Origin: Neorhizobium vignae
GTDB lineage: Bacteria > Pseudomonadota > Alphaproteobacteria > Rhizobiales > Rhizobiaceae
Length of the DNA: 64,000 bases
Assembly: GCF_000732195.1 (NCBI RefSeq)
Contig: NZ_JNNU01000002.1
Location: 1 to 64,000 of the forward strand
Reading direction: 5' to 3'
The position numbers and the translations under genes are program-made. The notes beneath the pieces were generated by a model. The model was not told the origin of the DNA and did no database searches. It saw only the letters and a program-made list of their open reading frames with translations. Positions 3,180 to 45,813 of this stretch are shown here, one piece after another. Within the stretch, counting starts at the first letter, position 1. Each line of letters begins with the position of its first letter.

Positions 3180-3491
3180 TCAGTTCGGCCAAACGATAGC
3201 CGTGATGCCGCCGATGAACTCTTCAATGGTCGGAGGTGCGATCTCGCCGGCCTCGACCGCCGCGAGCTGCTGGAACATGTGGATCAAAGCGGCATCCCGC
3301 CAGGCAATGTAGGCTTCCGCCTCCGCTGCCCATTGGGGATTTGTGCTGCCGACGTAGCTGACGATGGTCATGCGGTTGTCGTATTGCCGCTGAGCCGCGA
3401 CAGCGTCGAGATGATGATCGAACGCGAGCTTGTAGTGATCAAGCGTCGGAGCAATGCCAGGTAGGATTGCGGTCCCCCAGGAAGTCAACAT
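3180..3491 (-). CDS. Hypothetical phage protein after the tail fibre
   Basis: 103 residues, no recognised domain, no signal peptide or membrane segment. It is rich in aromatic and acidic residues, with a central VGSTNPQWAAEAEAYIAWRD segment. Its start overlaps the tail-fibre stop codon (TGATG), which implies coupled translation. A small gene directly behind a fibre gene is often a fibre-assembly chaperone or a fibre-associated protein; that role is inferred from position only. Confidence 0.7.
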   Translation of the reverse strand: MLTSWGTAILPGIAPTLDHYKLAFDHHLDAVAAQRQYDNRMTIVSYVGSTNPQWAAEAEAYIAWRDAALIHMFQQLAAVEAGEIAPPTIEEFIGGITAIVWPN

Positions 3492-6301
3492 CAGAAGTTA
3501 CCCCACTGCGCTCCACCCGCAGAGACAATGGTCTTCTTGCCGGTCAGGTTGCGGAAACGGTATTTCATGTTCATGCCGCTCGGTTGAGAAGCGAGGCTGG
3601 CGTCACCCTGATAGAGTTTCTTACCCCCGACATCCGAGATGAGCGCCATCGCTGCGGTTGCCCAGGTAGCGCCGTTGTCTCTGGAGATTTCGCCCACGAA
3701 ATCGGTGTTCGGGATCAGCGTGTCACTGCCAACACCAGTTTCGATCAACACGCGACCCTTTGCCGGAGAGCTCGTCGAAGCTACGGCTACCGATTCCAGA
3801 ACCATATCGTCATAGACCTTGGCAGCCGTTTTCCCTTCAATCCCCCTGAAGGCGATGAAGTTACCGGCGGCAAGTGCGGTGTAGGTCGCCGGTGCGGCGA
3901 CGTCAGCTTCTTGAGCCGTTGCCTTCGAATAACCGGCGATCATCCCCGCTCCAAACTGAGCCTGGTCGAGGATGCCTGACGTAGCAGGGCAATCGAACGA
4001 TATGATCAAATCCCTAGAAATATCGGGCACGAAAGGCACCCAATCAGACCAATGATCAGTCAAAGCAATGGGAGTGAAGCCATTATTCCCGCCAAAGGTG
4101 ACGCGCGTAATCGTAGCGGGGTCCATATCCCACGCATTGCCGGCCGCAGCTTTGTGGCCGATGAATACATTCGCTATCTGCTTTTGAGCACCGCTTAGCG
4201 ATCCTCCCAAACATATGCGAAGGTAATCAGCCGTCTGTCGAAGCATGCTCGCAGAAAGAACCCCCCTGAAGGTGTAAACGGTCGCTATAGCCGCACTGTT
4301 GATGCGGGTTCCGCGAAGGGTGGTAATCGTCGTCTTCAGCTCGCGGGGATACCATTGGAAACCAACAGCATCATAGAGAGCCAATTTTGTCTGGGACGAC
4401 CCATCACCGTAAGCCGCTACAGGTGGCGTGAAATTATCGAAATTTCTCGCGATACCCTTCGAGACACGGAGCTCATCCATATGCCCGTTGAACGGGAGGG
4501 TGCCGTCCAGCGCGGCGCCTATAAAAGGGCCAACCGCATGGACGATATAGCTATTGGCATCCGCATATGTTGCACCTTCCTGAACGCCGTTCAGAAACAG
4601 TTTGGTTGATCCAGCTTGTCTCAAGAGCTTTATATGATGCCACGCGTTCAAGGCGATGACTGTTGTTCCAACAATACGGTTTGCAGCCGAAACATAGTAA
4701 GCAAGAACGTTGGCATTCGTGATGTACAGATATGGCGCAACGGAAGTTGCTGCGGTCCTGAAGTCAAGCAAGGTGTGCTGAACGCCTGAGGCAAGGCGAT
4801 ATATCCAAAAGTCTACTTCAAAGTCGCCTGTACCGAACGCGAAATCACTGGAGCCATCGCCGAGAAGCCGGCAGTTCGCGGTTTGGTCAAACAGGGCCGA
4901 GAACCCGCCAAATCGAGACTGCGCATCGCTGATCTGAAACGATCCTTGAGGCGTCCAGTAGTGACGCGGCGATCCGGAGGCATAGTCTTCATAGGCACTG
5001 TCTCGGACGGTCTTCTTGCCAGCTACAGGTCCATCGAAATGGAGAAGAGAAACGGTGAACGGGTCACGCCCGCCGTTCGGAAGATTGATGCCGGCCGTGT
5101 TGCGATAAGAGTCCGCAAATCCCCCGTTCATCCCCTGTATGCTGCCTGTCAGGTCAGCAAGAGCCAAGGCAAACGCGGCGTCATTCTTGCCGCCTGCGTT
5201 CGCAGCCAAAACCTCGATCGCCGTCTGGAGCGTTGCTGGCGCATCCGGAAGCCCGGCAACCGCATTATCGAACGACACGTCGGCTGCCGTTGTTGCAAGC
5301 CAATCCTTCGCCTCCTCATTCGTCAACGCCTTGAGGACTTTGCCGGTCTCGCCGTCAAAACCAACAAGCGCCCCGTCCTCCGATGCTGCCGGCCCGGTTA
5401 CAAGATCGGCGACCAGCTTGCCTCCATCGTCGATCGCCTTGCCGGTATTGCTGCTGAAGGCGGCGACGCGGCCGACCGTAGCGCCACCCGGCCCTATGAC
5501 GTCACCCGTGCCCGTGCCGTCCATGCCCTTTGCTGCTGCGAGCTGCCAATAGGCGTTGGCAGTCGCCGGGAGAACAGGGGGAGCATTCCCGGTGGTCGCT
5601 TGCAGGGCGATCCAAGAGGAGCCGTTGTTCAACACCATGTCACGCACGGCGTAGGCCGTGGCACCGGAATAGGCGCCACGGAAGTTCACGCCGATTTCGC
5701 CGGCCGGGATCGTGAAGGTGATCTCGTAGGGATCGCCCGGTTCACCGCTACCCGTCACCACCATCCCGGCATTCGAGCTGGGAGCACCGGTAATGACCGG
5801 CTCGAAGCCGATCTCAGGTGCCGGCCCGGCCGGACCAGTGCCGTAGCTGAACGGCCCCGCCCAATCGCCAGAAGTCGCAGAGGCCTTGATGTAGAGATCT
5901 GCTGGATTGACGTCGATCGCCAGGAAGGCAAAGCCTGCCGGCCGCTCATTATAAGTCGCGAGGTCGGCTGTCTCGCCCGCCACGTCATAGCGGTAGAGCG
6001 TTCCCGCCTCCATCGCCACCAGAAGCCGCGACAGGATATTGCTGTTGGTTTCGAGCTGCTCGCTGAATGCGGTAGCGCGAAGCAGCGCATAGGCGTAGGT
6101 GCCGGTCGCGCCGGTCCATTCCAGAGCCGCCGTCGCCGCGGTGTCGCTTTCGATCGACGCCAAGGGCAGCGGGTTACCTTCCGCCTGAACGAAGATCGTG
6201 CCGCCGGCCACCTGTGCAATCGCCCAGGCGGTATCGATGCCGGTCACGGCCTTGCTGCCGTTGGTCAGCTGAACCGACCCGGTGATGTAGTAATCAGCCA
6301 T
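3491..6301 (-). CDS. Tail fibre / receptor-binding protein with LamG-like lectin domain
   Basis: 936 residues, one of the largest prophage proteins. The N-terminal ~170 residues look like a virion-attachment region (GSVQLTNGSKAVTGIDTAW), followed by low-complexity, beta-rich repeats. Residues of about 420-630 form a concanavalin A/LamG-like fold (LLHFDG near the start, FDVDFWIY-like and AWHHIKLLRQ segments, then GHMDELRVSKG), a domain that commonly binds surface polysaccharide in phage fibres. The C-terminal ~250 residues are unassigned. The position after the tail-tip genes fits host recognition. The exact receptor cannot be read from sequence. Confidence 0.8.
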   Translation of the reverse strand: MADYYITGSVQLTNGSKAVTGIDTAWAIAQVAGGTIFVQAEGNPLPLASIESDTAATAALEWTGATGTYAYALLRATAFSEQLETNSNILSRLLVAMEAGTLYRYDVAGETADLATYNERPAGFAFLAIDVNPADLYIKASATSGDWAGPFSYGTGPAGPAPEIGFEPVITGAPSSNAGMVVTGSGEPGDPYEITFTIPAGEIGVNFRGAYSGATAYAVRDMVLNNGSSWIALQATTGNAPPVLPATANAYWQLAAAKGMDGTGTGDVIGPGGATVGRVAAFSSNTGKAIDDGGKLVADLVTGPAASEDGALVGFDGETGKVLKALTNEEAKDWLATTAADVSFDNAVAGLPDAPATLQTAIEVLAANAGGKNDAAFALALADLTGSIQGMNGGFADSYRNTAGINLPNGGRDPFTVSLLHFDGPVAGKKTVRDSAYEDYASGSPRHYWTPQGSFQISDAQSRFGGFSALFDQTANCRLLGDGSSDFAFGTGDFEVDFWIYRLASGVQHTLLDFRTAATSVAPYLYITNANVLAYYVSAANRIVGTTVIALNAWHHIKLLRQAGSTKLFLNGVQEGATYADANSYIVHAVGPFIGAALDGTLPFNGHMDELRVSKGIARNFDNFTPPVAAYGDGSSQTKLALYDAVGFQWYPRELKTTITTLRGTRINSAAIATVYTFRGVLSASMLRQTADYLRICLGGSLSGAQKQIANVFIGHKAAAGNAWDMDPATITRVTFGGNNGFTPIALTDHWSDWVPFVPDISRDLIISFDCPATSGILDQAQFGAGMIAGYSKATAQEADVAAPATYTALAAGNFIAFRGIEGKTAAKVYDDMVLESVAVASTSSPAKGRVLIETGVGSDTLIPNTDFVGEISRDNGATWATAAMALISDVGGKKLYQGDASLASQPSGMNMKYRFRNLTGKKTIVSAGGAQWGNF

Positions 6302-30759: not shown

Positions 30760-30986
30760 CAGTCGCCTCCATCGTTTGGTATATCGATGGTTGCGAGACA
30801 GTAGTCGGGATCGGCGCCGCTGCCCCGGCTGTTATCGTATAGGGCTCGCTCCCCGTCCTGACGGTTGCGCATCACACAAAGGCTGCCTGACGCCGAGAAC
30901 AACCACAGCGATTTAGGCCAACGGCGGGCCAACCGCTGCAAGGTAGCGATCACCCCTCGCTCTTCTTCGGTTGGTTCGATCTCCAT
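30756..30986 (-). CDS. Small hypothetical early protein
   Basis: 76 residues, starting at the ATG that overlaps the helicase stop (TGATG). EEERGVIATLQRLARRWPKSLWLFSASGSLCVMR looks like a helix followed by a beta hairpin, and the C-terminus is acidic. It is translationally linked to both neighbours. No function recognised. Confidence 0.65.
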   Translation of the reverse strand: MEIEPTEEERGVIATLQRLARRWPKSLWLFSASGSLCVMRNRQDGERALYDNSRGSGADPDYCLATIDIPNDGGDW

Positions 30987-32440
30987 CAAAACATCTCCTC
31001 CTGCTGGCGCTTCGGCTTCTGCGAGACGTAGCGGGTGTATTCAGCCTCGAATTTCACCGTCTCGACGATCGAGGGGTCGCCGAAGCGAACCTTGATCGAG
31101 GCGATCTCGGCGATGCCCTCGATTTCGGATCCGAACACGGTGTTGATCACCTTCCAGTCCTGGGTGGTGGCGGCGACCCTCTCCATCTCCTTCTTGTATT
31201 TCTCAGGCCGATAGAGGGTCATGATGGCGTCGTAGTCGGCCTTTGCCCCCTCGCCTCCGTAAAGGTCCTTGGCGATCGGCCGCGGGTTCTGCCGGCGGCC
31301 GCTCTCGCCGTTTCTCTGGTTGAGAATGAGCACCGAGGCACCGATCTCATCGGCAAGCGCCTTGAGCTCGACCGTGACCTCGCCCGAAATCCTGTCAGCC
31401 GAGAGCTTGTCGTTCTTCGGCTTCACCTTCCCGATGTGGTCGATGACGATGAAGGGCGTCTTGCCATTGGCGCGCTTCTTGATGAACCGGCGGGCATAGG
31501 CGACGAGCTTGTCCACTCCTTCCCGCTGGCACCGGATGATGTCGAATGGCTTGCTGTTGATCTCGGTGGCGAACAGAACGCACTTGTCGCGCTCGTAGTC
31601 GGTCATGAGGCGCGACGGCTCCCGCTGCTGGCGGACGCTGATCTCGTGAACCTGGGCGATCATCTGACGCACGCATTGGGCGGCGGACTGGTCATAGGAG
31701 AGGAACAGCGTCGGGTGTCCGTGGCTCACCGCGTGATAGATGAGCTGCATCGTGAGGCTGGACTTGCCCTCGCCTGACGAGGAGAGCAGTCCGTAGAGGT
31801 TGCCGGCCTCGAACACGGGCTCCGACAGCACCTTGGCAATCTCCGGCAGACCGATCGGCACGCCGAGGACGCCGTCGCGCTTGGCAGATGCCTCGAACAT
31901 GGAGAGGTAGGAGGCGCCCGGCGATGCGATGGAGGTCGTTTCGCGGAAGCGCGCCTTCAACTCCTTGAGGCGCTGCTCCATGTGCTCGATCTCATCGGCA
32001 AGCGTGAGAAGGGTGTGGCCCTCGGCGGCAATCTCTCCAGCGATCTGGGCTTCACGGGCAAGCTGCCGACCGAGCGATACGCTCTTAATTACCTCAATGG
32101 CGCCGGCGATGTTTCGGCGAACCATAGGATCGGCGCCGAGCATCATGAGGTTCGAGAGATAAGTCGCGGGCGTGACATCGCCGAACCGGTTCGAGCTGAC
32201 CAGCTTGGGCATGAAGGGCTTGAGCGAGACGGCATTGACGTGCTGTCCGCCCTCATAGAGCTCCAGCGCCTCACGGAACGCGATCTGGTGAACGCCCTCG
32301 GCGAAATCGTCAGGCTCAAGCCCGCACTCGATCAGCAGCGAGTTATCGTTGAAGATGCAAGCCAGCAGGAGTTCGGTTGCCTGAAAGGCATCGTCCTCGG
32401 TGATTCGGTCGAATGCGTCGCGGTTGCTTAGTGCATTCAT
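30986..32440 (-). CDS. Replicative DNA helicase, DnaB-like
   Basis: 484 residues from the ATG at 32440 with GGGGTGG upstream. An N-terminal helical DnaB-type domain (LLLACIFNDNSLL.ECGLEPDDFA) is followed by a RecA-like helicase core: Walker A in LLSSSGEGKSSL at about residue 225, an LSYDQSA segment, FIVIDHIG as Walker B near 340, and a loop LILNQRNGESGRR with the arginine-rich tail typical of DnaB motif 4. No separate loader is obvious. It is the replication helicase of the early operon. Confidence 0.87.
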   Translation of the reverse strand: MNALSNRDAFDRITEDDAFQATELLLACIFNDNSLLIECGLEPDDFAEGVHQIAFREALELYEGGQHVNAVSLKPFMPKLVSSNRFGDVTPATYLSNLMMLGADPMVRRNIAGAIEVIKSVSLGRQLAREAQIAGEIAAEGHTLLTLADEIEHMEQRLKELKARFRETTSIASPGASYLSMFEASAKRDGVLGVPIGLPEIAKVLSEPVFEAGNLYGLLSSSGEGKSSLTMQLIYHAVSHGHPTLFLSYDQSAAQCVRQMIAQVHEISVRQQREPSRLMTDYERDKCVLFATEINSKPFDIIRCQREGVDKLVAYARRFIKKRANGKTPFIVIDHIGKVKPKNDKLSADRISGEVTVELKALADEIGASVLILNQRNGESGRRQNPRPIAKDLYGGEGAKADYDAIMTLYRPEKYKKEMERVAATTQDWKVINTVFGSEIEGIAEIASIKVRFGDPSIVETVKFEAEYTRYVSQKPKRQQEEMF

Positions 32441-32517
32441 CACGCCACCCCACATTCAACCGGAACGAGTCCTAAAGTGATTCGTTGAGTCGGGTGATTC
32501 GCGTGAGGTACTGCGTT

Positions 32518-33038: not shown

Positions 33039-33683
33039 TCATGCCGCGGCTCCCACGCCCACCTGCGCCTGCCGCTGCTTTGCCTGATGCGCGCCGGTGC
33101 GCAGATCCATGAACTTGCGCTGCATCCATTCGATCTGAGGGACGTCGCACTTGTGCCAGCAGGTGCAGACGCCGACCGCTTCGGCCGCGTCCTTCTGCTC
33201 TTCCTTGTTGCCCGGTAGCTTGATGCTCTCGCGATCACAGGCCTCGATCGCCATCTTCTTCCAGTCGCTACCCTGGGCGGGCTTTACGCCCTTGCCGTAA
33301 TAGACCGGGCGCCAGGACGTGGCGGCGATGGTGCCGTATGGGACGCGCATCATCATGCAGATGCCGATGATTGCGCCAGCGATGCCCGTGAGCTGCAGCG
33401 CGGCGGGATTGATCGTCATCACGTTACGCTCCTCGCCCGTCAGGTCCGGCTTGCCCTTCTTTGTGAACTGGCGGACGCCGTGCTCCGGCCGTTCGATCGC
33501 GACGAAGTCGGGCTTGTGATCCTTCAGGAGGCGGTAGAAGAGGTTCGCGGCGATCGCGTATTTCTCCTCCCACTCGTATTCCTTCACGGTGAAGGTGCCG
33601 CATTGGATGGATGAGCGGTGGCGCTCGCTGTCGCGGACAGCCCAGCCGGATCGGGTTGCAAGGTCGAGGCCCATGATGATCAT
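33039..33683 (-). CDS. RuvC-like Holliday-junction resolvase / endonuclease
   Basis: 214 residues with RNase H-fold landmarks of the RuvC family: MGLDLATRSGWAV at the N-terminus with the first Asp, FVAIERPEHG with Glu near residue 64, and KDAAEAVGV with Asp near 165. A region with C/H residues follows (VCTCWHKCD), and the C-terminus is Gln/Arg-rich. Phage RuvC-like enzymes cut branched DNA before packaging. The start overlaps the upstream stop (ATGA). Confidence 0.8.
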   Translation of the reverse strand: MIIMGLDLATRSGWAVRDSERHRSSIQCGTFTVKEYEWEEKYAIAANLFYRLLKDHKPDFVAIERPEHGVRQFTKKGKPDLTGEERNVMTINPAALQLTGIAGAIIGICMMMRVPYGTIAATSWRPVYYGKGVKPAQGSDWKKMAIEACDRESIKLPGNKEEQKDAAEAVGVCTCWHKCDVPQIEWMQRKFMDLRTGAHQAKQRQAQVGVGAAA

Positions 33684-35415: not shown

Positions 35416-35687
35416 GCTGAGCCTCCCACAATCGAGATGGCGCGCGTCTTCCCCCGGATGCGGCGGATTGCCCCGCGCTCGTCGAGTTCGTTGATGAGGT
35501 GGTGGATCGCGGTCTTGGACGCGAGGCCCAGGAAATCCTTCATCTCGTTGAAGGTCGGGGCCACACCGTCGTTTTCAGCGAGGTAGCCCTTGATGAAGAC
35601 GAGAAGCTTACGCTGCCGCCCGGTGAGACCGAGTGCGGCCGGCGCTTCCGGCTCGAATGAGTGAGTACAGCACGGGCAGGTTATCAT
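35412..35687 (-). CDS. Winged-helix regulator with Cys pair (LexA N-terminal-like)
   Basis: 91 residues from the ATG at 35687 behind GAAGGG. An N-terminal CPCC motif could bind metal. Residues 20-90 look like a LexA-type winged helix: LTGRQRKLLVFIKGYLAENDGVAPTFNEMKDFLGLASKTAIHHLINELDERGAI. There is no S24 protease domain. It is likely a DNA-binding regulator of the early operon. Overlaps its neighbours by 4 bp on both sides. Confidence 0.74.
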   Translation of the reverse strand: MITCPCCTHSFEPEAPAALGLTGRQRKLLVFIKGYLAENDGVAPTFNEMKDFLGLASKTAIHHLINELDERGAIRRIRGKTRAISIVGGSA

Positions 35688-36013
35688 GATGCCCTTCCCT
35701 TCCGCCGGCGGATCTCCGCTTCGGCGGCTTCGCGGTTGGGAGCGGAGACCGCGCCGACGTCGGGATCGACGATAATGCAGGTGCCGTCCTGGGTATGGAT
35801 GATGGAGCGAAATGGTGACGGCCAGTCCTGACCGCAGCAGAGGCAAAGCCCAGAGTTTTTGCTCACGGCGCGAGCCATCGATATATCGAAGTCGCGAGCG
35901 CGCTCTATCCGAGACAGCGTGGCCGGCGACGTTCCGACCCGCTTTCCCACATCGCGGATGCCGGCACCCTCGGCAGTGCGGAGCTCCAGCAGTTGAATCC
36001 CAGGCACTGTCAT
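35684..36013 (-). CDS. XRE-family helix-turn-helix protein
   Basis: 109 residues from the ATG at 36013. The N-terminal 50 residues form an XRE helix-turn-helix (LLELRTAEGAGIRDVGKRVGTSPATLSRIERARD). A CLCCGQDW motif follows, then a basic C-terminal region. It starts inside the stop of the upstream gene. A regulator of phage or host promoters is likely; the target is unknown. Confidence 0.72.
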   Translation of the reverse strand: MTVPGIQLLELRTAEGAGIRDVGKRVGTSPATLSRIERARDFDISMARAVSKNSGLCLCCGQDWPSPFRSIIHTQDGTCIIVDPDVGAVSAPNREAAEAEIRRRKGRAS

Positions 36014-36264
36014 GCTCCACCTCCGCAGTCGTCGACGATCTGAAGGTTGATCTCGGTATGCCGGTGAACGATGACCGAGTTCCCCGGATGCTCCGGAACG
36101 ATGTACAGCTGCCAGGCCAGCGGCGGCTTGCCGCGCGTTGCGAAGCCGGCCCACTGCTCGCGTTTCTTGTCCCAGGTGGTCGGACCGACCACGGCGCCGC
36201 ACTCAGACGCGAGCCAGAGCTTGCGGTCGCGCGGGGCGCTGGTGATGTCGTGGTTCCAGCTCAT
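36010..36264 (-). CDS. Small DUF551-like hypothetical protein
   Basis: 84 residues from the ATG at 36264, which has GGAGATG upstream and overlaps the DpdA-like stop codon. Its start SWNHDITSAPRDRKLWLASECG resembles the WI.....P..G..VL pattern of small phage DUF551-type proteins, and it ends in an acidic VDDCGGG. Function unknown. Confidence 0.62.
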   Translation of the reverse strand: MSWNHDITSAPRDRKLWLASECGAVVGPTTWDKKREQWAGFATRGKPPLAWQLYIVPEHPGNSVIVHRHTEINLQIVDDCGGGA

Positions 36265-37025
36265 GCGAACATCTCCATCTGCCACGGCTGGAAAGAAGAC
36301 GAAGCCGCATGATTGACGACTTCAGCGAACCGAGCCGCTTCCTGCCAATCGTTGGCGCTCCTGCCCTGCTTCCGAGCTGCGAAGCTCCACGCCATACTGT
36401 CGGCGCTGTAGAGGTATTCCCGAACGCCGGGATGCAGCAGGCTCGTCTTCTTGACGCCGAAGCCATGCAGCCGAAGTTCAGGGCGAACCGAACGGATTGC
36501 CTGCAGCACTGCCATGATCGCGTGTGGGTCGCCCTGACGCTTGCAGACGGAGCCGACACCGACCCACATCCCGAACTTGAGCCGGTCGCCGTACTGGACA
36601 ACATGGGTGACGTAGTCGGTCGGCGCGAAGCCCTGGAGCACGGGCATGACCGGCACCGGGAGTTCGCAGCCGAGCAGCGCGTCGTAGCGCTCGACCGTCA
36701 GCCGCTGGTGATCGGACATCGTGAGGCCGGTCTTTTCCAGCATCCACGGTTCGCACATGTAGTCTTGAGCAACGGCAGCAGAGATGTTGACCACGCCAGA
36801 GTCGTGCAGGCGCTGGACCTCGGCGGCGTATTCTTCGACCGTGTGACGATACCGGCCGTGCTGAGCGAGTTCGGTGAAGGCGCCGCTATCGACAAGGACG
36901 TCGCCACAATCGACCGCCTTCCTGCGTCCGCGCAGCCGGTTGATGCTGATGCAGGCCAGATCGAAGTGCTGGGCGTCTGCAGGCTGGTGAAGTCCAACAT
37001 AGAATTTTACGGCTGCGGCGGTCAT
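36261..37025 (-). CDS. DpdA/TGT-like DNA deazapurine transglycosylase
   Basis: 254 residues with the core of the tRNA-guanine transglycosylase superfamily: VDSGAF with Asp46 (general acid/base position of TGT), MPVLQG with Gln131, the GVGSV.KR loop at 155-163 (GGLAVGE position), LHGFGVKK at 186-193, and DSMAW with Asp209 at the nucleophile position. The Cys-rich zinc site of bacterial TGT is not evident. In phages this short form is known as DpdA, which swaps guanine in DNA for a 7-deazaguanine and so protects against host restriction. No queCDE/folE genes lie in the window, so any precursor would come from the host queuosine pathway. It is the second gene of the operon and overlaps cro by 4 bp. 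Confidence 0.85.
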   Translation of the reverse strand: MTAAAVKFYVGLHQPADAQHFDLACISINRLRGRRKAVDCGDVLVDSGAFTELAQHGRYRHTVEEYAAEVQRLHDSGVVNISAAVAQDYMCEPWMLEKTGLTMSDHQRLTVERYDALLGCELPVPVMPVLQGFAPTDYVTHVVQYGDRLKFGMWVGVGSVCKRQGDPHAIMAVLQAIRSVRPELRLHGFGVKKTSLLHPGVREYLYSADSMAWSFAARKQGRSANDWQEAARFAEVVNHAASSSFQPWQMEMFA

Positions 37026-37225
37026 TCGGCGGCCTCAACCAGAACAAAATCGTTTGGCTGCACGAGACCGCCGGTGAACTCGGCGATCTTCCTCATCTGG
37101 TCGGGGCGCGGTACGCGCTCGCCGTACATCCACTTCCGAACGCCGGACGTGGACATGCCATCCATCACAGCAGCGAACTGCTCTGGGCTTAGATTTTGTT
37201 CGGTGAGGTACTGTGCGAGTTTCAT
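37022..37225 (-). CDS. Cro-like helix-turn-helix repressor
   Basis: 67 residues, a single XRE/Cro domain: LSPEQFAAVMDGMSTSGVRKWMYGERVPRPDQMRKIAEF. It is the first gene of the leftward early operon, divergent from the S24 repressor gene, the position of cro. Its ATG lies six bases after a -10-like box, so the transcript is probably leaderless. It should compete with the repressor at the operators at 37235-37319. Confidence 0.82.
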   Translation of the reverse strand: MKLAQYLTEQNLSPEQFAAVMDGMSTSGVRKWMYGERVPRPDQMRKIAEFTGGLVQPNDFVLVEAAE

Positions 37226-37260: not shown

Positions 37261-37319
37261 CCCCAAAATGGGGCGAGACAGCAAATGGCTGAATTTGCAA
37301 TGTTACCCGTTATGGGAAA
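37235..37319. promoter_or_regulatory. Immunity operator cluster, repressor/cro region (three sites)
   Basis: Three related palindromes. Site 1, 37235-37251: TTACCCAAAGTGGGTAA, perfect 6-bp half-sites. Site 2, 37261-37273: CCCCAAAATGGGG. Site 3, 37303-37319: TTACCCGTTATGGGAAA, imperfect right half. The centres are 24 and 44 bp apart. The shared form is (T)NCCC-N5-GGGN(A). Site 1 lies in the cro promoter; site 3 covers a possible start codon of the repressor gene, suggesting autoregulation. The same motif recurs three times at 39123-39186. Confidence 0.8.
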
Positions 37320-37941
37320 CAAGCTTAAATCATTGCGCGAAGAGCGAAATTGGACACACGAGAAGGCAGCTGAGGAGATGGGCGTCTCGCGCAGCCAGTT
37401 CATCAAGCTCGAACGCGGCGAGCGCCGCATGACGATGGATTATATAAACCTGGCAGCGAAGGCTTTCGGGATACGGCCGGCCGACGTCATCGATGATACG
37501 GAGGAATTTACCGTCCCGCTTATGGGCTACATCGGAGCAGGGGCTGAGATCATGCCGGATTTTGAGCAGGTCCCGCCCGAGGGTCTGGACCAGATTCAGG
37601 TTCCTTTCCCGTTGCCTGATGAGATGATCGCGCTCGAGGTGCGGGGGGACTCCATGTTGCCGGTCTACAAGGATGGCCACGTCATCGTCGTCTACCGCGA
37701 CCAAAAGAAGCCCATCACTTCCTTCTACGGCGAGGACGCCGCGGTCCGAACAACTGACGGCCGCCGTTTCCTCAAAACGATCGTAAAGGGCTCGCCCGTC
37801 ACACTTATGTCCTTCAACGCCGCGCCAATCGAAAACGTGGGGCTTGAGTGGATAGGCGAAATTTTCGCGGTCCTTCCTCGTTCGCAGCTCAGAAAGACAA
37901 GCCGCGCCGGCGGGCTCCAGGGGAGTTTGAAGCTGGGATGA
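37312..37941 (+). CDS. Prophage repressor, XRE + S24 peptidase (CI-like)
   Basis: 209 residues from the ATG at 37312; the ATG at 37285 would add nine residues. Residues 1-60 are a helix-turn-helix domain (LKSLREERNWTHEKAAEEMGVSRSQFIKLERG). The C-terminal half is a LexA/CI-type S24 protease domain with GDSMLP (Ser nucleophile) and RFLKTIVKGS (Lys), and a GAGAE sequence near residue 75 that could be the self-cleavage site. It should keep the prophage silent and be inactivated by RecA-DNA. Divergent from cro; no good Shine-Dalgarno is seen at either start, so a leaderless mRNA is possible. Confidence 0.87.
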   Translation: MGNKLKSLREERNWTHEKAAEEMGVSRSQFIKLERGERRMTMDYINLAAKAFGIRPADVIDDTEEFTVPLMGYIGAGAEIMPDFEQVPPEGLDQIQVPFPLPDEMIALEVRGDSMLPVYKDGHVIVVYRDQKKPITSFYGEDAAVRTTDGRRFLKTIVKGSPVTLMSFNAAPIENVGLEWIGEIFAVLPRSQLRKTSRAGGLQGSLKLG

Positions 37942-44330: not shown

Positions 44331-44581
44331 TGGCGAAGCTATCTGACGCACTTGCATATCCTCCTCGGGGCATGTCCCGGGAGGAAGCTGCTCGCTATGT
44401 CGGCGTCGGCACCACAAAGTTCGACGAGATGGTTGCTGACAAGCGGATGCCGAAGCCGCGCAAGATCGACGGTCGGGTCGTATGGGACCGCATAGCCCTC
44501 GATGCGGCGTTTTCGGATCTCCCGTCCGACGGCGGCAACATGATCGACGAGATATTGTCACGGCGCGGGCTTCATGCCTAA
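44330..44581 (+). CDS. Excisionase-like helix-turn-helix protein
   Basis: 83 residues from the ATG at 44330 with AAGCGGGG upstream. A MerR/AlpA-type winged helix: LAYPPRGMSREEAARYVGVGTTKFDEMVADKRMPKPRKIDGRVVWDRIALDAAF. Such proteins serve as recombination directionality factors when next to integrases. It ends 2 bp before the integrase ATG. Its low copy control would decide between integration and excision. Confidence 0.82.
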   Translation: MAKLSDALAYPPRGMSREEAARYVGVGTTKFDEMVADKRMPKPRKIDGRVVWDRIALDAAFSDLPSDGGNMIDEILSRRGLHA

Positions 44582-44583
44582 CA

Positions 44584-45678
44584 ATGCCTATGGAAGAAGA
44601 AAAACGCCCCTACCTGTCGCATTTCCAGGACCGCCACGGGAAGACCCGTTGGCGGTATCGTCGTGGAAAGGTGACCATCTCTCTCAAGGGAAGCCCGGGC
44701 GAAGCTGAATTCGAAGAGGCGTATCAAGCCGCGATCGAGGGACGGAAGCCGCGGACAGCGGAAGTCTCGAAGATGCCGGGTGCCGCCGCGCCAGGCACAT
44801 TCCGCGCCGCTTGGACCAAGGTGAAGCGAAGCCCTGAGTGGATCGCCCACGATCCAGCGACGAAAGCGAAGAACGTGAGGTTGGCTGAGGAATTCCTCGA
44901 ACTCCCCATCGTTGAGGGCCACCCTGAGCTATGGGGCGATGTGCCGATCAAGGACCTCAAGCGCCGTCACGTCAAGGACATCCTCTCGCATTTCAGCGCC
45001 ACGCCTCACAAGGCGAAGCACCTTCTGGTAACCATCCGGAAGATGATCCTGGTCGCGCTCGACGAGGAATGGATTGAAACGGATCCGACGTGGAAGCTCA
45101 GTTACCGGCCCGAATACAAAGGCTGGAGAGCCTGGACCGATTCGGAACGTGCAATGTTCGAGGCCCGGTGGCCGATCGGATCAACCCCGCGAACGGCCTA
45201 CGCCTTGGCGCTGTGGCTGGGGAACCGTCGGTCTGACGTCGCTCGCCTGAAATGGGAATGGTTCGATTTCCGCAAGGGAAACGTCACACTGGTGACGAAG
45301 AAGGGCGACAAGACGCTCGTCCTGCCCATAACCCCAATGCTTCGCGAGACGCTAGCACCGCTGTCCCGCGACACGGAAACCGTCCTCTTGACCCAATACG
45401 GTCAACCGTTTTCGGAAAAGTCACTCACAGGGAGAATGGCCGACTGGACCCACAGCGCCGATCTGCCCAAGGGCTGCACCATGCACGGACTGAGGAAAAG
45501 CCTGGGGAAAATGCTGGCCGAAACCGGTGCGACCACCCGTCAGCTTATGGAAACGCTCGGCCATGACGATATTGAGCATGCCGAACTTTACAGCAGAGCA
45601 GCCGAGCAAGAGCGGCTCGCGCGTGACGCAATGACGAAAGTCACCAAGCGATATCAGACGAAAAAACCGAAGGGCTAA
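44584..45678 (+). CDS. int: Phage tyrosine integrase
   Basis: 364 residues. The N-terminal part has an arm-binding-like basic region (HFQDRHGKTRWRYRRGK), residues about 70-165 the core-binding SAM-like domain, and 180-345 the catalytic domain with the complete set: Arg215 in GNRRSD, Lys239/240, His301 and Arg304 in HGLR, His327 in GHDD, and Tyr336 in ELYSR. It lies 60 bp from the 3' end of the tRNA-Ile gene, which is the attachment site. No frameshift, so it should be active. Confidence 0.93.
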   Translation: MPMEEEKRPYLSHFQDRHGKTRWRYRRGKVTISLKGSPGEAEFEEAYQAAIEGRKPRTAEVSKMPGAAAPGTFRAAWTKVKRSPEWIAHDPATKAKNVRLAEEFLELPIVEGHPELWGDVPIKDLKRRHVKDILSHFSATPHKAKHLLVTIRKMILVALDEEWIETDPTWKLSYRPEYKGWRAWTDSERAMFEARWPIGSTPRTAYALALWLGNRRSDVARLKWEWFDFRKGNVTLVTKKGDKTLVLPITPMLRETLAPLSRDTETVLLTQYGQPFSEKSLTGRMADWTHSADLPKGCTMHGLRKSLGKMLAETGATTRQLMETLGHDDIEHAELYSRAAEQERLARDAMTKVTKRYQTKKPKG

Positions 45679-45737: not shown

Positions 45738-45770
45738 TGGTGGGCCCGGAGGGACTCGAACCCCCAACCA
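45738..45770. other. Prophage right attachment region (attR) in the tRNA 3' end
   Basis: The tRNA gene's 3' end faces the integrase gene across 60 bp, the usual layout when a tyrosine integrase targets a tRNA. The crossover core should be in the T-arm/acceptor stretch, about 45738-45770. No second copy of this stretch was found at 1-1508 or elsewhere, so attL is outside the window or lost. Confidence 0.65.
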
Positions 45771-45813
45771 AGCGGTTATGAGCCGCCGGCTCTAACCATT
45801 GAGCTACAGGCCC
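45738..45813 (-). tRNA. tRNA-Ile2 (anticodon CAU, lysidine-modified)
   Basis: 76-base cloverleaf on the minus strand with acceptor GGGCCTG/CGGGCCC, D-arm AGCTC..GAGC, anticodon loop CTCATAA, T-arm with GGTTCGAGTCC and encoded CCA. The anticodon is CAU. It is not initiator or elongator Met: the arm sequences (CGGCTCATAACCGC..GGTTGG) match the minor isoleucine tRNA, in which TilS converts C34 to lysidine to read AUA. Integration left the gene whole. Confidence 0.88.

Follow-up and report, generated by a model that had tools for sequence, protein, structure and literature searches.

The closest described systems are phages which encode DpdA but no precursor genes. Hutinet 2019 (PMC6884629) reports, in the portions of the text available, 76 such phages and suggests host preQ0 or uptake as the source of the base. 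The two DpdA-only phages assayed there, as far as those portions go, are Orion and Salmonella phage 7-11. Orion DNA from M. smegmatis, a host without the pathway, contained none of five 7-deazaguanines, and in 7-11 dADG amounted to ~0.02% of G. In phage CAjan, deleting the DpdA gene abolished dPreQ0 in the phage DNA. The same portions of the paper leave undecided whether the singleton DpdAs of phages have acquired other functions. A DNA transglycosylase using preQ0 is likewise described for bacterial dpd islands (dpdA-K) in the accessible part of PMC11888242, which places YhhQ near ~9% of these islands.

We analysed a stretch of 64,000 nt from Neorhizobium vignae (contig NZ_JNNU01000002.1, positions 1 to 64,000), referred to as the window. 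It contains a prophage with a compact dpdA gene. Unlike in the dpd islands this dpdA is a single prophage gene, and its own genome holds no second DpdA match. CAjan itself carries FolE, QueD, QueC, QueE and a putative preQ0 transporter, whereas none of these was found in the window. The existence of DpdA-only phages and their proposed use of host precursors were published in 2019, and the window gene adds no new kind of system. Going beyond that work, compact DpdA genes repeatedly abut a gene of the YhhQ/VUT family (preQ0 importer).

The window gene encodes a compact DpdA-family protein of a temperate phage, which probably replaces some guanines of the phage DNA with a 7-deazaguanine of the host and would thereby shield it from restriction.

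The dpdA gene and its prophage context

The dpdA ORF occupies 36261..37025 on the minus strand and encodes 254 aa. The initial annotation had placed it at exactly these coordinates with no strand given, and all core residues it had named are present: D46 in DSGAF, Q131, GVGSV (156-160), HGFGVK (187-192) and D209 in DSMAW. A 327-aa frame overlaps on the plus strand; that the dpdA frame might be an artefact of it was ruled out, as the family matches fall on the minus-strand frame. The surrounding features are:

37270..37941, plus strand: CI-like repressor, divergent from cro (phrog_4 transcriptional repressor, 86.2 bits)
37022..37225, minus strand: Cro-like repressor, 67 aa (PHROG transcription regulator matches, best E 3.5e-7), 4-nt ATGA overlap with dpdA
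36261..37025, minus strand: dpdA, compact DpdA-family protein, 254 aa (Pfam PF23859, 138.5 bits; phrog_1279, 263.6 bits), only DpdA match in its own genome
36010..36264, minus strand: 84-aa ORF directly after dpdA, ATGA overlap, without PHROG or Pfam match
35684..36013, minus strand: helix-turn-helix protein, 109 aa (Pfam HTH_31, 29.9 bits)
33039..33683, minus strand (that of dpdA): RuvC-like resolvase candidate (phrog_159, E 1.3e-11; without Pfam match)
30986..32455, minus strand (that of dpdA): DnaB-like replicative helicase, downstream of dpdA (phrog_19, 146.7 bits)
44482..45678, plus strand: tyrosine integrase at the right prophage end (Pfam Phage_integrase, 66.8 bits)
45738..45813, minus strand: tRNA-Met adjoining the integrase (ARAGORN)

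The start codon of dpdA sits in the ATGA that also holds the stop of the cro-like gene, and its stop in the ATGA shared with the 84-aa ORF. The overlap with cro, the divergent CI-like repressor and the DnaB-like helicase downstream place dpdA second in the early operon, in agreement with the earlier proposal. Among the relatives, sequence similarity detects a CI-like repressor divergently upstream of dpdA in no more than 4 of 112 eligible groups; hence a conserved cro-dpdA arrangement is not claimed for them.

Towards the left lie genes for portal, scaffold, head, tape measure, tail fibre and endolysin. Since the contig starts at window base 1 and a transposase is close by (272-1306; phrog_2199, 290.6 bits), the contig may not include the left end of the prophage. 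On the right, the tRNA-Met is likely the attachment site; its region has a single weak second occurrence in the own genome, which does not define the second attachment half. Apart from this, the record of Rhizobium phage RHph_TM3_3_3 (MN988468.1) carries a 15-base attL feature inside dpdA (6162-6176 of locus L008). Another observation concerns window 3491-6301 (minus strand), which encodes a protein of 936 aa; its start is tail-fibre-like, and at about residues 442-679 it matches baseplate-wedge and virion structural families.

A viral contig from IMG/VR, 45,676 bases long, has an identical dpdA gene. The stretch of this contig that was compared is identical to the window at an offset of 2, so that the contig should equal window 3-45,678. 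Two other viral contigs contain copies of 94-95% identity. A DNA comparison of 20 kb returned just one phage record, covering 3% of the query.

Family assignment and conserved positions

The match to Pfam PF23859 (DpdA), a family with a curated cut-off of 27 bits, reaches 138.5 bits, and the best PHROG is phrog_1279 with 263.6 bits, followed at distance by phrog_887 with 24.8 bits; the family match is therefore more than chance. At E up to 1 the protein matched no other Pfam family, TGT included, and none of the TGT models in NCBIfam. Every one of the 92 sequences in a broad alignment matches phrog_1279. This alignment comprises the window protein and 91 of 102 loci, from which odd-length, motif-less and similar loci had been removed beforehand. 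Nine positions are identical in 92/92 sequences: D46, S47, D88, Q131, G132, H187, G190, K192 and D209. In terms of the TGT superfamily, we take D46, D88, Q131 and D209 to be the catalytic aspartates and the positions contacting the substrate. H187 pairs with H187 of CAjan DpdA and may be the same as the histidine at position 196 which, in the available portions of PMC6884629, is conserved in DpdA and absent from DpdA2.

Relatives in phages differ considerably in distance. Gp25 of Sinorhizobium phage phiLM21 belongs to the same compact family and is 76.7% identical to the window protein (tblastn); gp43 of mycobacteriophage Validus and gp20 of UncleHowie, also compact, reach ~42% (tblastn). For B1 phages no other preQ0 genes are reported in the accessible part of PMC9584339. 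Mycobacterial hosts are without the queuosine pathway according to the available text of PMC6884629, while the host of the window carries pathway genes. CAjan DpdA, in contrast, is a phrog_887 protein of ~25% identity. Its motifs DSGAF, LHxFG and DSxxW (aspartate kept) are collinear with those of the window protein, and BLASTP gave 30.4 bits with 49/200 identical positions (E 4e-5 in a two-sequence search). The DpdA of phage 7-11 (phrog_887, 234 aa) resembles the window case in that the phage is without precursor genes, as far as the available text of PMC6884629 goes, but the two proteins align without significance (BLASTP 18.5 bits, E 0.28; profile 4.2 bits).

The DpdA motifs show the same order as in bacterial and archaeal TGTs, the host TGT included, at similar spacing. 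A profile comparison with 16 bacterial TGTs, however, aligned only 19 columns around DSGAF. The suggested alignment to DpdA and TGT thus held for CAjan DpdA, where it is weak but collinear, and for bacterial TGT was confined to DSGAF. Searches of the PDB by phmmer and hmmsearch yielded no relatives, merely chance matches to viral proteases at E ~0.5. A TGT-like fold of the window DpdA is predicted from its family membership.

The own genome has one DpdA match, 36261..37025, and a TGT search of it returned only a single gene (C24:66909-67970). CxCxxC is the zinc motif of TGT, and the initial annotation had contrasted the missing Cys-rich zinc site with bacterial TGT. This contrast had to be abandoned: the host's true TGT retains one of the three CxCxxC cysteines, and so the missing site does not discriminate the window protein from it. 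Three other alphaproteobacterial TGTs (L204, L205, L210) have one cysteine at this site as well; in Sphingomonas and Polyangiaceae TGTs the motif is kept.

Supply of the base and VUT genes beside dpdA

Five genes of the queuosine pathway exceed their cut-offs in the host, namely QueC (170.2 bits, NCBIfam cut-off 150.3), a QueD-type PTPS protein (69.7 bits, cut-off 22.4), QueF-II (147.9 bits, NCBIfam cut-off 86.9), QueA (478.8 bits, NCBIfam cut-off 324) and TGT (474.4 bits, NCBIfam cut-off 306.75). The window was searched by tblastn with ten proteins from the host, CAjan and relatives (two QueC, QueF, FolE, QueD, QueE, two VUT and two PAPS-type), and no match was obtained at E 0.01. FolE, QueD, QueE, QueC and QueF were also not found in the flanks (mostly up to 6 kb) of 165 dpdA loci, window included, and in a control these queries recovered their own source genes. 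Both claims made earlier, a host with queuosine-pathway genes and a window in which no queuosine-synthesis gene is detected, are hence upheld. The window DpdA ranks with the DpdA-only phages in that no preQ0 or archaeosine genes were detected in the window, although the prophage may continue past the left contig edge. As neither a precursor nor an importer gene was found in the window, the phage would depend on its host for the base.

We therein follow the initial annotation, which had proposed a DNA modifier working on host precursors; the DpdA family with its conserved catalytic positions, the early operon, the host genes and the window without a detected precursor gene are in its favour, the zinc argument is not. 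Encoded next to Cro where the early operon begins, DpdA would be made along with it and, through the base exchange known from the TGT/DpdA family, would probably exchange some guanines of the phage DNA for a 7-deazaguanine. The latter would be drawn from the host queuosine pathway, most likely as preQ0, possibly as preQ1, and the DNA of progeny phages would then be shielded from restriction enzymes. We infer DNA as the target, as well as the base, the extent of replacement and the protection.

An Embleya plasmid has a VUT-family gene, annotated as queuosine salvage, followed after 20 nt by compact dpdA; two DNA cytosine methyltransferases are nearby. We searched the 165 dpdA loci with this VUT protein and the putative preQ0 transporter of CAjan. 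Nine VUT genes were found in 8 of 128 locus groups, each ≤240 nt from dpdA:

NC_029046.1, L007:8774-9301: phiLM21 gp26 (VUT), directly after dpdA with 1-nt overlap (Vut_1, 53.3 bits; counted from two collections)
Microvirga massiliensis: VUT gene beside dpdA, 4-nt overlap
Rhodobacteraceae MAG: VUT gene beside dpdA, 4-nt overlap
Two other viral contigs: VUT genes beside dpdA
Dehalococcoidia MAG: VUT gene beside dpdA
Two Streptomyces: VUT genes beside dpdA

Eight of nine VUT proteins compared with Vut_1 exceed its cut-off and the ninth reaches 27.0 versus 27.2; in all nine the match lies chiefly in the second half of the model. In its record phiLM21 gp26 is annotated as a hypothetical protein despite its Vut_1 match. 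While phiLM21 carries VUT directly after dpdA, the window phage is without it (no match with the two VUT queries by tblastn).

The reverse search with two VUT alignments yielded at least 103 viral contigs with VUT, one list comprising the best 80 of 176. Among the matches listed, compact DpdA occurs in the flanks of 14/103 contigs, corresponding to 14/74 sequence groups, and is always adjacent; the query VUT genes had been chosen as dpdA neighbours, which favours DpdA-adjacent hits. Three of these 14 listed contigs were already counted in the locus groups and 11 are new, with a possible dpdA start overlapping the VUT stop by 4 nt in seven of the latter. The 89 other VUT contigs among the matches listed have no compact DpdA in their flanks, so phage VUT occurs without DpdA, too. 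Transporters beside DpdA are named for full-pathway phages in the accessible part of PMC7472734, and CAjan with its putative preQ0 transporter beside DpdA is such a phage. Phage YhhQ was uncorrelated with any phage group in the available portions of Hutinet 2019 (PMC6884629). A literature search for DpdA together with 'VUT family' found no report; an earlier mention is possible. Through the adjacent VUT genes compact DpdA is linked to the import of a precursor, and a two-gene cassette would allow a test of whether singleton phage DpdAs have diverged.

Plasmids, actinobacterial elements and alternative readings

A genome scan found 113 encoded relatives, of which 80 were kept, and a plasmid collection contained 101 records with a match. 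Geminisphaera colitermitum TAV2 contributes three loci (L062, L077, L078), two with equal match length and identity. Among 33 actinobacterial loci (by record title), in 14 dpdA is preceded by an FtsK-like gene and followed by an integrase on the same strand (L085, L093, L094, L102, L103, L106, L108, L109, L110, L113, L114, L116, L119, L120); one representative each of FtsK and integrase was confirmed by Pfam and the rest extended by profiles. This layout resembles that of AICEs. Literature searches found no report linking DpdA to actinobacterial integrative and conjugative elements and, among the papers listed, none on this subject for queuine in actinobacterial integrative elements.

Host genes were surveyed in 50 genomes from 50 of the 80 kept loci; the loci left out are all but one non-actinobacterial by title, and some lie in the same genomes. 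QueC was counted as full-length at ≥150 bits, which leaves out shorter matches such as those in G037 (125 bits), G038 (84), G042 (50) and G028 (44). By this measure 9 of 32 actinobacterial genomes with compact DpdA have QueC, five of them with partial Vut_1 matches of 34-55 bits, the range of element-borne VUT genes. Four further genomes possess TGT, all with YhhQ over 150 bits. The remaining 19 have neither full-length QueC nor TGT and no Vut_1 match over the cut-off. QueC at ≥150 bits is found in 11 of the 18 non-actinobacterial genomes and TGT in all 18 (once in two pieces).

With queuosine-pathway genes in its host, the window prophage offers a natural positive case. The reverse applies to the actinobacterial elements, where any modification of their DNA would require another uptake route or another base. 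Compact DpdA on plasmids and AICE-like loci, together with the VUT pairing, makes the question of singleton DpdA testable. Compact DpdA might even serve as a camouflage enzyme of mobile elements generally (temperate phages, plasmids and AICE-like elements, the latter probably transferring dsDNA), working on a scavenged base, in some cases as a translationally coupled VUT-DpdA pair, and placing a new DNA base in hosts without known genes for synthesis or uptake. We regard this wide extension as doubtful.

Compact DpdA could alternatively swap guanine in DNA for a base outside the known 7-deazaguanines, one that is available without the queuosine pathway. This would suit the 19 actinobacterial genomes above, and QueT is present in just 1 of the 50 genomes, yet 26 actinobacterial alignment rows show no change at the catalytic positions. 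We presume Orion to be a B1 phage. Its DpdA would accordingly belong to the compact family, as judged from B1-type phages, and Orion DNA, free of the five 7-deazaguanines (PMC6884629, in the portions available), points the same way as these genomes. However, compact dpdA repeatedly adjoins the preQ0-importer family, some of the surveyed genomes are MAGs, and other transporters or environmental preQ0 could supply the hosts; further preQ1/preQ0 transporter families are described in the accessible part of PMC11130926. We thus consider another base unlikely.

It is quite improbable that DpdA contributes little, with low or no modification, and persists because it is now and then useful in some hosts. 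The traces of dADG in phage 7-11 and the result for Orion quoted above would agree with this, as would the window lacking the importer gene of some relatives. On the other hand the frame is intact, no catalytic position is lost, its start and its stop both overlap the neighbouring genes, and copies of 94-95% identity exist in two other viral contigs next to the 92/92 conservation.

Insertion of a host 7-deazaguanine into phage DNA remains our preferred reading, also with regard to the neighbours of dpdA. Methyltransferases occur near dpdA in 33 of 128 locus groups. Profile matches were obtained on 34 locus sides within 1 kb and on 6, 10, 2 and 3 per further kb, the profile seeds coming from clusters found around dpdA. 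A seed-free motif test gave a weaker trend with 19/338 ORFs within 1 kb versus 25/889 farther away; the C5 motif gave 6/338 versus 4/889, and a reversed control motif also falls with distance (7/338 versus 9/889; all raw counts). The window has no methyltransferase match near dpdA, which counts against this reading, as do the missing VUT gene, the TGT profile alignment confined to DSGAF, the PDB searches without a relative, the results for Orion and 7-11 and the 19 actinobacterial genomes. An action on RNA, for instance on host or phage tRNA as by TGT with altered translation during infection, is highly improbable: the TGT-like catalytic layout and the many relatives annotated by similarity as queuine tRNA-ribosyltransferase would fit, but the protein matches DpdA and no TGT model in Pfam (E up to 1) or NCBIfam, aligns to CAjan DpdA, which is proven to act on DNA, and has relatives often located near DNA methyltransferases.

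Profile counts for the PAPS-reductase family (PP-loop) show merely mild clustering near dpdA. Such genes lie directly beside dpdA on a Shinella plasmid (L237:4796-5929), on a Streptomyces plasmid (L235:6876-7934) and in a Hyphomicrobiales MAG (L048:4799-5932).
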